Part shown: positions 24,499-31,838 of the stretch, in pieces
Layout of the letters: each line of letters begins with the position of its first letter
Numbering within the stretch: the first letter of the stretch is position 1
Source: Candidatus Magasanikiibacteriota bacterium
Lineage (GTDB): Bacteria; Patescibacteriota; Patescibacteriia; Magasanikbacterales; GWA2-37-8
Length of the DNA stretch: 44,662 nucleotides
Direction: 5' to 3'
Assembly (NCBI GenBank): GCA_016234265.1
Contig: JACRFW010000006.1
Location: 1-44,662 of the forward strand
The notes under the pieces: model-generated
Seen by the model: only the letters and a program-made list of their open reading frames with translations
What the model was told of the DNA's origin: nothing
Databases searched by the model: none
Translations under genes and position numbers: made by a program

Positions 24499-24534
24499 GT
24501 GACAAATAAATACTGCGCAATCATATTTCAATTT

Positions 24535-27351
24535 ATGCCAGATAAACTAGTTATTAAAGGCGCTCGCGCCCACAACCTGAAAAATATTTCGCTCGCCATT
24601 CCCAAAAACAAGCTGGTCGTCGTGACCGGCTTGTCTGGCTCGGGGAAGTCCAGCCTGGCCTTTGATACCATCTATGCTGAAGGTCAGCGGCGCTATGCCG
24701 AGTCCCTTTCCAGCTATGCCCGGCAGTTTATGGACGTGCAGGACAAACCGGACGTGGACGCGATTGAAGGACTGTCGCCAACGATCGCGATTGATCAGAA
24801 AGTGTCAACCCAAAATCCCCGTTCCACAGTGGGTACCGTGACCGAAATCTATGACTACCTCCGTCTTTTGTTTGCCCGCGTCGGTACCCAGTATTGCCCG
24901 GATTGCCATGTGGCGGTAGACAAACATACCACCGGAGAAATAGTGGAGCGGGTACGCGAGCGGGCACGCAAGGCGACAGCAGTGTCTATTTTTGCGCCGC
25001 TAGTTCGGGACGCGGTGGTGAACCGGGAAGAGTTGCTGGAGAAGGTAGAAAAATCTGGGTATGAATGGGTTACTGTTGACGGCGAGCTGCTCAAGATTAA
25101 TGAATTGTCTGTCTATCCTTTTGAGGCGGGCGAAACATATTCGGTTGATTTGCTCATGGGGAAAATTCTCAATATTAAAAAAGACGATCCGACCAAGGCG
25201 GTGGAAACAGCCGTGGATTTGACCAATGGGCTAGTGCGCGTGGTGACGGATGAAAAAGCCGAACTTTTTTCCACGATTGGTTTGTGCCCGAAGTGCGGGC
25301 GAACGATGCCGAGCCTCGACATGCGCAGTTTTAGTTTCAACAGCCCCTACGGTGCCTGTCAGCGTTGTACCGGGTTGGGTATTACCATGGAGGTGGACGC
25401 GAACCTGGTAATTCCCAACGGCAAGCTGACCCTAGCCGAGGGGGCGATTCAACCCTGGACGCGCATTACCGGCAACCAGAGCTGGTATCAGAAACTGCTC
25501 AGCAAGGTGGCGGAACGGCACAGTTTTTCCGTGCACACCCCGATTGCCGAACTTCCCTCCAAAACACTGGATATTATTTTGTTTGGCAGCAGTAGCGAGT
25601 CATTGGAAATTGACGGCAAGAAAGTGGCGTTTGCCGGGGTTATTCCCGATTTGATGCAGAAGCACCTGGAAACCAGCTCGGAATACGTGCGTAAAGAAAT
25701 TGAACAATATATGCGCGAGCGCATCTGCCCCATCTGCCAGGGGAAGCGCCTCCGCGCCGAATCACTCGCCGTGCGTATTGGGGAGCTTACCATTGCTGAT
25801 ATGGCGGCCATGAGCGTAGAGGAGAGCGGTAGCGCATTGAAAAAGATTTTTGTAAAAAATGGCGCTGCGCTTAAAGGCAGTCAGGTAAAAATTACTGAAC
25901 CGATTCTGAAAGAGATTTCCCCGCGCCTGGCCAATCTGGAGCGGGTCGGTTTGGGGTATCTGAATTTGAGCCGCTCCATGAACACCCTTTCGGGCGGTGA
26001 GGTAACGCGCGTGCGCTTGGCGAGCCAGCTGTCGGCGGGCCTCACGGGCGTTATCTATGTTCTTGATGAGCCGTCGGTGGGCTTACACTCGCGCGACAAC
26101 CAGCAGCTTATTGACACTTTAAAATATCTGCGTGATCTCGGTAATTCGGTGATTGTGGTGGAGCATGATCCGGCCATGATGATGGCGGCGGACTACCTTA
26201 TTGATATTGGCCCCGGCGCCGGGGTGTATGGGGGAGAAGTCATTGCCGCGGGTACTTTGGGGGAATTTAAAAAGAATCGTAAATCACTCACAGCTGATTA
26301 TTTGAGCGGCCGGATTGATATCAGTAAAGAGTTTCGTGGTTCGGCGAAGGCCAAAAAGAAGTCTGTTCCAGCGAGGTCGCTCATTATTACCGGGGCCAAG
26401 GCATATAATCTGAAAAATATTGATGTGGAGATACCGCTCGGAAAGCTCGTGTCGGTAACCGGCGTGTCCGGTTCTGGTAAATCCACTCTCATTATAGATA
26501 TTTTGAGCAAAGCCCTGTCTAAATATTTTTATCGCGCCAAAGACGAGCCTGGGGCGCACAAGAGCATCAAGGGAATTTCCAATATTGATAAGGTGATTGC
26601 CATTGATCAGTCGCCCATCGGCCGCACTCCGCGGAGCAACCCGGCCACTTATACCGGCGTCTTTACGCTTATCCGCGATCTGTTTGCTTCGCTTACCGAG
26701 GCCCGGATGCGCAATTATGACGCCGGCAAGTTTAGTTTCAATGTAAAGGGCGGGCGCTGCGAGGCCTGCGCCGGAGATGGTTACATTCGCATCCCCATGC
26801 AGTTTTTGGCCGATGTATTCGTGGAGTGCAATGAGTGCGGGGGCTTACGTTACAGCCAGGAAGCTTTGGAGATAAGATACCACAACAAGCACATTGCCGA
26901 CGTGTTGAAGATGACGGTGGAAGAATCTTACTTATTTTTCAGCGAGTTTCCGGCGATCGCGGATAAGTTGAATGTCTTGCGTGAAGTGGGCCTTGGCTAT
27001 GTGGAGCTCGGGCAGCCGGCCACTACTATCTCTGGCGGTGAGGCGCAGCGCATTAAGCTCGCGCAAGAACTCTCGCGCGCTGCCACCGGCAATACTTTGT
27101 ATATTTTAGATGAACCGACGACCGGTCTTCATTTTGAAGATGCCAAGCGTCTGCTGCAGGTGCTCAATCAACTGGTGAGCAAGGGGAATTCGGTGGTGAT
27201 TATTGAACACAATCTGGATGTTATTCGCTCCTCTGATTGGGTGATTGATCTGGGGCCGGAGGGCGGCAAGGGCGGGGGTGAAGTGATCGCGCAGGGGACG
27301 CCAGCCGAGGTGAAGAAAAACAAGAAAAGCTGGACGGGGAAGTATTTATAG
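24535..27351 (+). CDS. uvrA: Excinuclease ABC subunit A
   Basis: [66 protein letters not shown]; two ABC signatures and CxxC zinc motifs. Confidence 0.97.
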
Positions 27352-28300: not shown

Positions 28301-29464
28301 TTAAGCCAGTAGTTTTAAAAATAACTCCAATTCTTTCGGAAGAGGCGACTCAAATGTCTGTTTTTCTCCATTTAGGTCGGTAAAACCAAGTTTGGTGGAG
28401 TGTAGAAACAAGCGGCCTAATTTTTCGTCCCAGGCGCGTTTGCGTTTTCTCTGATAGTAAAGCGGATCGCCGACGATAGGGTGGTTGTAGGCGAGCATAT
28501 GGACGCGGATCTGGTGCATGCGGCCGGTGTGGATTTTGACGCGGAGCAGGCTGAAGTTTACAAAGTGTTTTTCTACCAGGAATTCAGTGCGGGCATCCTT
28601 CTCGTCGTTGTCATCCTGAGCGCCAGCGAAGGATCCCTTAAGGTCAGAATTTAAGGGATTCTTCGTTTCCTGCCTGCCGGTAGGCATGGCACTCAGAATG
28701 ACAGATTGGTCGACTGAACGCTTGAGCGGTCTAGCCGCCATGCGGTCGTTATTTTCCCCGCGCGCGATAGGAAATGTTATCTCATCCCAATCTTTGGCCA
28801 CGCGGTCGTGCACCAGCGCGTAGTATTCTTTTTCAACAGTGCGGTTTTTGAATTGGTCTTTGAGGTGGTTGAACATCTTTTGGGTTCGGGCGATGACCAT
28901 CAGGCCGGAGGCTTCTTTATCAAGTCTATGCATAATTCCTGGTCTGATATTGCCACTTGAGGATAGCTTGCCCCGCATCCTATGTGGTGCGGGGTCGCCA
29001 ACTTTTTTTACTTCCGGATAATTTTTTACGAGCCAGGCAGCGAGGGTGTTAGTTTCTTTGGCTTGGGTGGGGTGCACGAGCAGACCTGATGGTTTTTCAA
29101 TGACAATATAGTCCGGAGTTTCCGCAATGATTTTTGGAGTGAGTACAGGGCGGGGTTTCGTTTTGTCATTCTGAGCGGAGCGGAGCGGAGTCGAAGAATC
29201 CCTTGCCTTTGAGTTTAAGGGATTCTTCCCGCCCGAACGACTGACGTCATTCAGTCGGGCGGGCGTTTCACTCAGGATGACAACCACATACCCATTTTTC
29301 ATGGTGTCGCCAGCTTTTTTAGGCAATTTGCCGTTCACCATAATCTGCCCTTGGTCAATCATTTTTTGCGCTTGCGAGCGGCTGATGCTAAGTTCTGCGG
29401 CAATGACAACGTCCAGGCGTTCGCCATGGTGTTTTTCTTTGATAGTGATTTTTTTGGTAGTCAT
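28301..29464 (-). CDS. RluA/RluD-family pseudouridine synthase carrying two in-frame repeat insertions
   Basis: S4 domain; HRLDKEASGLMVIARTQKMFNHLKDQFKNRTVEKEYYALV; GRMHQIRVHMLAYNHPIVGDPLY; insertion-derived peptides SVILSAMPTGRQETKNPLNSDLKGSFAGAQDD and NDVSRSGGKNPLNSKARDSSTPLRSAQNDK. Confidence 0.93.
   Translation of the reverse strand: MTTKKITIKEKHHGERLDVVIAAELSISRSQAQKMIDQGQIMVNGKLPKKAGDTMKNGYVVVILSETPARLNDVSRSGGKNPLNSKARDSSTPLRSAQNDKTKPRPVLTPKIIAETPDYIVIEKPSGLLVHPTQAKETNTLAAWLVKNYPEVKKVGDPAPHRMRGKLSSSGNIRPGIMHRLDKEASGLMVIARTQKMFNHLKDQFKNRTVEKEYYALVHDRVAKDWDEITFPIARGENNDRMAARPLKRSVDQSVILSAMPTGRQETKNPLNSDLKGSFAGAQDDNDEKDARTEFLVEKHFVNFSLLRVKIHTGRMHQIRVHMLAYNHPIVGDPLYYQRKRKRAWDEKLGRLFLHSTKLGFTDLNGEKQTFESPLPKELELFLKLLA
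28609..28703. repeat. Palindromic element copy A (inside the rluA-type gene)
   Basis: TGTCATCCTGAG...GAAGGATCCCTTAA...TTAAGGGATTCTTCG...CTCAGAATGACA. Confidence 0.8.
29164..29282. repeat. Palindromic element copy B (inside the rluA-type gene)
   Basis: TGTCATTCTGAG...GAAGAATCCCTT...AAGGGATTCTTC...CCCGCCCGAACGACTGACGTCATTCAGTCGGGCGGG...CTCAGGATGACA. Confidence 0.8.
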
Positions 29465-29465
29465 G

Positions 29466-29538
29466 TGCGCCTGGATGGAATCGAACCATCAACTTCCACC
29501 TTATAAGGGTGGCACTCTAACCGGTGAGTTACAGGCGC
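29466..29538 (-). tRNA. tRNA-Ile (anticodon UAU), 3' CCA not encoded
   Basis: GCGCCTGTAACTCACCGGTTAGAGTGCCACCCTTATAAGGTGGAAGTTGATGGTTCGATTCCATCCAGGCGCA; loop CTTATAA between CCACC/GGTGG. Confidence 0.92.
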
Positions 29539-30874: not shown

Positions 30875-31726
30875 ATGTTTTTCAACAGGAAAGTTTTTTT
30901 AGCTGCCATTTTCTTCTTTATCGTGGTGCCATTCGGAGTCTGGAAACTGTATCGGCATAAGTACCCGGCGTATGTGCCGTTGCCGCCCCGCGCAGAGGTG
31001 ACTTTGACGATAATCCCAGGTTGGAATTTGCGGCAAGTTGCCGATTATTTGGTGAAAGTGGGGGTAGTCTCGACTACTGATGACATTTATGATGTCACCG
31101 GCCGTCCGGCTGTTGATTATAGCAATATTAAAACACGCCCTTTTAATACAGAGCTTATGGAGGGATATTTTCCCGGGAGTGTCCAGAATGGAGCAAGCTA
31201 TGAAGGTTACCTGGCCCCAGAAACTTATCGCGTTTTTAGAGGGGCCCGCGTGGAGGAAGTAGTGGACAAATTGATGGCGGAGCGGAAGAAACAAATTACG
31301 CCACAGATTCTGGAGGCCATTAAGCAAAGCGGCAAAACAGTCCACGAGATTTTAACAATGGCCAGCATTTTGGAAGAGGAAGCCAAAGCGCTCCCGGACC
31401 GACGGTTGGTGGCGGATATTTTGTGGCGGCGAAAATCCAAGAACTGGGCTCTGCAGGTGGACTCCAGCGTGCATTACGCCGCAGATAAGACCGGCACGGT
31501 ATTCACGAGCGATAAAGAGCGCGCGGTGGATTCTTTATGGAATACCTATAAATATCCCGGGTTGCCGCCGGGGCCAATATCTGCGCCCAGCGTTGAATCA
31601 ATCCAGGCGGCGCTTTACCCTGAAAAAAATAATTATTGGTATTTTTTGAGTGGCACTGATGGGAAAATGCATTATGCCAAGACACTGGAGGAACATAATT
31701 TGAATAGAGCGAAGTATTTACGTTAA
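30875..31726 (+). CDS. mltG: Endolytic transglycosylase MltG (YceG-like)
   Basis: TM anchor; SYEGYLAPETYRVFRGARVEEVVDKLMAERK; ILTMASILEEEAKALPDRRLVADILWRRKSKNWALQVDSSVHYA. Confidence 0.93.
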   Translation: MFFNRKVFLAAIFFFIVVPFGVWKLYRHKYPAYVPLPPRAEVTLTIIPGWNLRQVADYLVKVGVVSTTDDIYDVTGRPAVDYSNIKTRPFNTELMEGYFPGSVQNGASYEGYLAPETYRVFRGARVEEVVDKLMAERKKQITPQILEAIKQSGKTVHEILTMASILEEEAKALPDRRLVADILWRRKSKNWALQVDSSVHYAADKTGTVFTSDKERAVDSLWNTYKYPGLPPGPISAPSVESIQAALYPEKNNYWYFLSGTDGKMHYAKTLEEHNLNRAKYLR

Positions 31727-31735
31727 AAATTAAGT

Positions 31736-31838
31736 TGTCATCCTGAGGTCGCCGTAGGCGACCGAAGGATCTTCCTTTTATGTCAATTGGTAAACGGGCA
31801 TAAGCGGAAGATTCTTCGGCTAAAGCCTCTGAATGACA
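31736..31838. repeat. Palindromic element copy C (intergenic, mltG-queA)
   Basis: TGTCATCCTGAG-GTCGCCgtaGGCGAC-CGAAGGATCTTCC...GGAAGATTCTTCG...CTCTGAATGACA. Confidence 0.8.

Follow-up and report, generated by a model that had tools for sequence, protein, structure and literature searches.

The rluD-type gene and its insertions

The window, by which we mean the whole stretch of 44,662 nucleotides that was analyzed, belongs to a genome of 913 kb (98% complete, 55 contigs) and carries a gene for an RluD-type 23S rRNA pseudouridine synthase whose nearest named relatives are those of Candidatus Magasanikbacteria. Profile matches placed an S4 domain at residues 15-60 and PseudoU_synth_2 at residues 118-324 of the product, which passed the RluA-family cut-off and in which both the HRLD catalytic motif and the GRMHQIRVHM motif are intact. 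According to the original prediction, one palindromic element was inserted twice, in frame, into this gene, and a third copy lay between genes. The three copies (A, B and C; Table 1) proved to be real, with exact coordinates and sequences, and both A and B are contained in a single open ORF of 387 residues with the reading frame kept. An addition of about 30-40 residues per copy had been expected, and residues ~61-101 of the protein come from copy B and residues ~254-286 from copy A; the net lengths of ~40 and ~33 residues are approximate, with comparison genomes that are all from other genera.

Table 1. Coordinates of the gene, the repeat dimers and their units in the window
Feature	Position	Strand	Remarks
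rluD-type 23S rRNA pseudouridine synthase gene	28301..29464	-	387-aa open ORF
Copy A, type I REP head-to-head dimer, 95 bp	28609..28703	.	~33 residues (SVILSAMPTGRQETKNPLNSDLKGSFAGAQDDN) in catalytic-domain loop
Copy A, REP unit 1	28609..28635	+	TGTC-ATCCT-GA-GCGCCAGC-GA-AGGAT-C
Copy A, REP unit 2	28657..28703	-	TGTC-ATTCT-GA-(enlarged upper stem)-GA-AGAAT-C
Copy B, type I REP head-to-head dimer, 119 bp	29164..29282	.	~40 residues in S4-catalytic linker
Copy B, REP unit 1	29164..29200	+	TGTC-ATTCT-GA-GCGGAGCGGAGCGGAGTC-GA-AGAAT-C
Copy B, REP unit 2	29221..29282	-	holds nested palindrome (CGCCCGCCCGACTGAATGACGTCAGTCGTTCGGGCGGG)
Copy C, type II REP head-to-head dimer, 103 bp	31736..31838	.	GATCTTCC...GGAAGATT spacer

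In the alignment to E. coli RluD (1v9f), the B site falls between residues 69 and 83 and the A site between residues 203 and 205, which matches the placement that had been deduced from the RluD architecture. The predicted insert peptides include NPLNSDLK and GSFAGAQDDNDEK. In an AF2 model of the protein, which was weak overall (five sequences as input, mean pLDDT 56), the two longest low-confidence stretches, residues 68-104 and 248-288, correspond to the two inserts.

A tRNA-Ile gene with the anticodon TAT (window positions 29465-29538, minus strand) ends directly before the rluD start codon. A tRNA-Ile of this kind decodes AUA directly; the usual alternative is a CAU tRNA that is modified to lysidine.

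Structure of the repeat units

Each copy consists of two inverted hairpin units that are arranged head-to-head. The order within a unit is TGTC, ATYCT, GA, upper stem, GA, AGRAT, C, such that TGTC is unpaired and ATYCT and AGRAT form a 5-bp lower stem, which opens with two A-T pairs (AT...AT in the units scanned, a result that depends on the search pattern). The lower stem is followed by a facing GA/GA, which suggests tandem G.A pairs, and then by 2-8 variable pairs and a loop of mostly 3-4 nt. CCCTT or CTTCC comes after the unit and is paired with the opposite half of the dimer, and there is no CCA tail. The elements were originally described as TIR-bearing, but they are better read as two inverted REP hairpins without a target-site duplication.

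All of the scanned units begin with TGTC, with the exception of one that begins with CGTC. The hairpin scan required both the TGTC tag and the GA/GA, so their constancy is partly a matter of construction and only the covariation of the upper stem counts as independent evidence. Among 51 distinct upper stems the sequence varies while the pairing is retained, with a sum of 137 end pairs compared to 63 +/- 6.8 (maximum 88 in 2000 trials) when the 5' and 3' halves were re-paired at random. In terms of the dimers, a C arm (ATCCT) is paired with a T arm (ATTCT) in 76 of 78 dimers from three genomes, and the base before TGTC is a pyrimidine at 60 of 66 dimer ends. Copies A-C fold as single-stranded DNA with z values of -5.3 to -7.3, and none of 200 shuffles folded as well. 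No match for copies A-C was found in Rfam, and no plasmid DNA similar to copy C was found.

The upper stem of copy A unit 2 is made larger by the nested palindrome CCATGCCTACCGGCAGGCAGG, and the lower stem of copy B unit 2 is no longer completely paired (ATCCT versus AGAAT). Further palindromes are nested in one arm of A and in one arm of B, and enlarged upper stems with nested palindromes also occur in the loci L010, L014, L021 and L032. Modules such as CGCCCGCCCG and ACATTCGCT..CGCTCAGTGTAAACTC recur in the nested palindromes.

Copy number and distribution

The original prediction proposed a scan of the genome for more copies. The start of the unit, TGTCATYCWGAR, has 98 occurrences in the genome, compared to none for the reversed pattern. 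Of 380 genomes sampled from the phylum, 84 contained the full unit, and the control matches were zero in every row of this survey. The highest full-unit count among the sampled genomes was that of the present genome (63), followed by G278, G182, G017, G007 and G328, and the exact canonical unit was also found in 49 stretches of viral contigs. About a dozen units lie within roughly 12 kb in locus L141 (G182:C3:56000-73100), a dense cluster that belongs to an unrelated Patescibacteria genome without a Y1 transposase.

Two spacer subfamilies and the reading frame

The dimers can be divided by their spacer into type I (CCCTT; copies A and B, which have it in common) and type II (CTTCC; copy C). 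Copy C is therefore a third copy in the sense that it has the same REP arms and is intergenic, as was first claimed, but its different spacer places it in a subfamily that avoids genes. Thirteen of 17 type I dimers are inside ORFs compared to none of 15 type II dimers (Fisher 7e-6). The other four type I dimers sit between intact neighboring genes, which means that no gene was observed to be disrupted by a dimer of this type. In the same-family genome G007, none of 17 dimers was within a gene. Two ORFs, leuS and a ComEC-like gene, do contain type II, but as single units and not as dimers.

None of the 13 type I dimers that lie within genes has a stop codon in the frame of the host, whereas on average only 1.4 of the 6 frames of a dimer are open. 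The intragenic dimers, which are open in the host frame, range from 73 to 161 bp. A single fixed insertion length is not supported, as the lengths of these dimers are 1 or 2 mod 3 and the arms vary in size. The orientation of the C and T arms relative to the host gene was 8 against 5 by inspection. Since most of this small genome is coding, the placement of type I reads as little avoidance of genes, combined with a strict filter for the reading frame. Type II, in contrast, is excluded from genes.

Copy C lies between a 283-aa ORF (30875-31726) and a 373-aa ORF whose first ATG (31833) is inside the copy. The ATGACA end of type II elements (window positions 31833-31838, and others) is often the first ATG of the adjoining ORF (MT...), and the automatic gene starts may therefore be wrong at such places.

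Host genes

About twenty genes carry a copy in frame, with names that were assigned from profiles. The hosts are PolA, a UvrD-type helicase, RecJ, an AddA-like helicase-nuclease, RluD (twice), TruB, TrmD, an RlmI-like methyltransferase, MnmA, TsaD, IleS, LeuS, TatD, a FemAB-like protein, a P-type ATPase, a PMT-type protein, a SucD-like CoA ligase, a ComEC-like protein, WecG, an O-antigen ligase and a 345-aa protein without a family name. A UvrA fragment at a contig end also carries a unit, and one scored ORF (L019:3224) was dropped from the list because it was probably a chance match. A resemblance to the palindromic elements of Rickettsia had been pointed out for the rluD gene, and it holds: the palindromes are in frame and in loops, and this is the case in about twenty other genes as well.

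Roles in DNA repair or replication, tRNA or rRNA modification or aminoacylation were assigned to 13 of 21 hosts compared to 5 of 30 random non-host ORFs (p=0.001). A preference for nucleic-acid enzymes as hosts is only suggestive, because this category was set from family names after the host list was seen and because the hosts are somewhat longer than the controls. Intragenic copies were also seen in the distant genome G182, where they affect two tRNA-synthetase-type proteins, GatB and MiaA.

Two uvrA-type genes are present in the genome, one at window positions 24499-27351, which has no TGTC REP, and one at L016:1036-2559, which runs into a REP at the contig end. A palindrome from a different family (CCTCTCCCGCGGGGCGAGGGG...CCTCTCCCCACGGGAGAGG) is inserted in frame in the uvrB gene (L108:353-2542), at residues ~328-358; this DNA-repair gene is one of the 30 control ORFs.

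Occupancy of the insertion sites in related genomes

In most of the 36 relatives with an RluD orthologue, the alignment has a gap at both insertion places, as the original prediction had anticipated, and the matches of TatD, TsaD and RecJ in most relatives are split at the insert. Genome G001 (71% core identity) has no insert at either RluD site, nor in TatD, TsaD or RecJ.

A different picture was obtained with the sister genus (G008 and G018; core identity 74.5% for G008), in which all 12 comparable sites are filled, 10 of these by a TGTC REP that is usually of another arm type. Five of the sites (the two in RluD and those in TatD, TsaD and RecJ) were picked without regard to REPs in G018 or G008, and the other seven come from stretches that were fetched because they bear REPs. 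In TatD, TsaD and RecJ of G008, the same residue is occupied by a TGTC REP that has arms of another type (ATTCC/ATTTC) or is a hybrid. The RluD linker (site B) has an ATTTC/ATTCC dimer in G018 and none in G008, while the RluD loop (site A) has an unrelated palindrome in both. The G018 genes for UvrD, the RlmI-like protein, IleS and the 345-aa protein have REPs at the matching position, and in SucD and LeuS of G018 the arm type is the same as in the present genome; the WecG site in G018 has another insertion, known from the protein level. In the reverse comparison of 11 sites from G018, five were common to the present genome and six were empty in it. Still other palindromes are found in the RluD loops of G011, G003 and G004 and in the TatD loop of G004. 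The original prediction had set insertion against ancestral sequence; the gaps in most relatives bear out the former, but the sister genus fills many of the points, usually with a different REP, and since so many points are occupied there, the insertions need not be unique to the present genome.

The sister-genus TsaD and UvrD elements have one arm of each type, and that of RecJ has three arms, including a leftover outer CT-type arm. Such mixed-arm elements fit an insertion into, or a recombination with, an older REP. The unshared site WecG-91 is also a hybrid, however, so mixed arms are not proof of insertion into an older REP.

The sharing of sites is too frequent for random insertion, which leaves either old insertions in which the arms were replaced or loops that are hotspots. 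The sharing with the sister genus fits both inheritance and hotspots. The trees do not decide between the two: the four-gene species tree has bootstrap values of 48-53, and the RluD tree groups the present genome with G014, which is without both inserts. We tentatively raise the possibility that protein loops serve as long-lived docking sites, in which the resident hairpin is replaced by the lineage's own REP type, hybrid and triple-armed elements are the intermediates, and nucleic-acid enzymes are the preferred hosts.

Origin of the insertions

The explanation that we favor, with good confidence, is that copies A-C are REP-class head-to-head dimers that were multiplied non-autonomously and are tolerated in frame as extra loops. 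Such repeats would have multiplied in an ultra-small genome of the Magasanikbacteria type without target duplication, and the mover was probably not one of the resident Y1/IS200 transposases. Copies in genes would survive only if the frame stays open, which would mostly be achieved with an entry as VIL.. and an exit as ..QND, and if the protein can accommodate a flexible loop. Both the RluD linker and the loop of the catalytic domain may be such places, and RluD would remain an intact enzyme that carries two additional segments (~40 and ~33 residues), which are probably disordered. The loop sites would be either long-lived, with arms swapped in place, or recurrent hotspots. The open frames and the intact downstream domains suggest that the inserts are translated. 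We infer their neutrality, the mode of their mobilization and the order of events.

The alternative that survives best is a REP/RAYT (REPIN) system moved by the cell's own Y1 REP-associated tyrosine transposase, in keeping with the inverted REP hairpins, the absence of target duplication and the three Y1_Tnp matches in this genome. However, the tag is TGTC instead of GTAG, and the Y1 genes look like IS200-type TnpA. No flanking unit was found among the Y1 loci examined, and the resident Y1_Tnp genes were rejected as movers because no unit is near them. In addition, no Y1_Tnp match was obtained in four high-copy genomes (G017, G182, G060 and G078), two of which, G017 and G182, are rated 100% complete, while G060 is a single contig. 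This alternative is thus considered unlikely.

It is also quite unlikely that the inserts are inherited, functionally selected loops that are palindromic by chance and whose peptide is retained for its effect. The filled sites of the sister genus would agree with such loops, but the peptides are unlike between the genera, the same DNA is present in unrelated proteins and between genes, and G001 does without the inserts in all four proteins compared.

A disfavored and improbable reading is that of a MITE, which would be derived from a DDE insertion sequence, be small and bounded by TIRs, depend on an IS transposase and leave a target-site duplication. The elements are short and repeated and have inverted ends, as a MITE would. 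However, matching flanks of 3-10 nt were found at none of 33 dimers, which is at or below the shuffle mean, and each end is a complete covarying hairpin like that of a REP instead of a plain TIR. Finally, the hairpins sit within coding sequence and, instead of being translated, might be cut out of the mRNA or bypassed in the manner of mitochondrial byps, but a bypassed element would not need an open frame, and the 13 stop-free dimers make this very improbable.

For the REP-class dimers favored here, the finding of different palindromes at the same residue of orthologues makes the re-targeting of old REP sites by REPs directly testable, and the same contrast between orthologues bears on how selfish DNA yields new protein segments. 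The several complete high-copy genomes that show no Y1 transposase bear on the question of what mobilizes CGTC/TGTC REPs.

Comparison with known systems

A literature search found no report of REPs or palindromic repeats in Patescibacteria; the arm DNA gave only chance primer-like matches and the insert peptides gave nothing. In-frame palindromes have so far been a curiosity of Rickettsia and were mentioned in passing in one REP survey. Here some twenty conserved genes carry them, in a minimal genome from a different phylum.

The elements are similar to bacterial MITEs in that they are short non-autonomous repeats with inverted ends, but they differ in the absence of a target-site duplication and in having hairpins as ends instead of simple TIRs. 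They are similar to REPINs and GTAG REPs with RAYTs in their paired inverted REP hairpins and lack of target duplication, but the tag is TGTC instead of GTAG and no unit-flanked RAYT was found.

Rickettsia palindromic elements (RPEs) are likewise short palindromes; numerous unrelated genes carry them in frame, at positions that correspond to loops of the protein. An RPE is a palindrome of roughly 100-150 bp that is in frame in ORFs, and the intragenic dimers described here agree with this in size and placement. They are set apart, by description, in that they come from another phylum and have other sequences. According to PMC3733652, RPE-1 has entered the tRNA pseudouridine synthase TruB; in the present genome both RluD and TruB are hit.

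The closest likeness is to the CGTC/TGTC-tagged REPs, for which Di Nocera et al. 2013 (PMC3733652) described four families. Those REPs have an unpaired CGTC or TGTC tag, a continuous stem of 8-9 bp in which the first two pairs are A-T, a loop of 4-5 nt and a short unpaired tail that is mostly CCA. Head-to-head dimers predominate, including heterodimers with complementary spacers, there is no dedicated transposase, and RPE-4 and RPE-6 are classed among them. In-frame intragenic copies are described from other phyla in genes for repair proteins, tRNA synthetases and pseudouridine synthases, and the hosts on that earlier list (uvr, rec/add and polA as well as the synthetases and synthases) recur in the present one. 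The elements of the present genome share with these REPs the TGTC variant of the tag, the A-T opening of the stem, the head-to-head heterodimers with complementary spacers, the lack of a dedicated transposase and the in-frame copies in the same gene classes. They differ in the 5-bp lower stem, the GA/GA step, the variable upper stem, the loop of mostly 3-4 nt, the absence of a CCA tail, the two spacer subfamilies with opposite placement and the host phylum, Patescibacteria, which is not named in the sections of that paper considered here. In summary, the tag, the A-T opening, the heterodimers and the intragenic habit are common to both, while the stem, loop and tail differ, and the elements are therefore best placed as a variant of the CGTC/TGTC REPs that lies outside the four published families.
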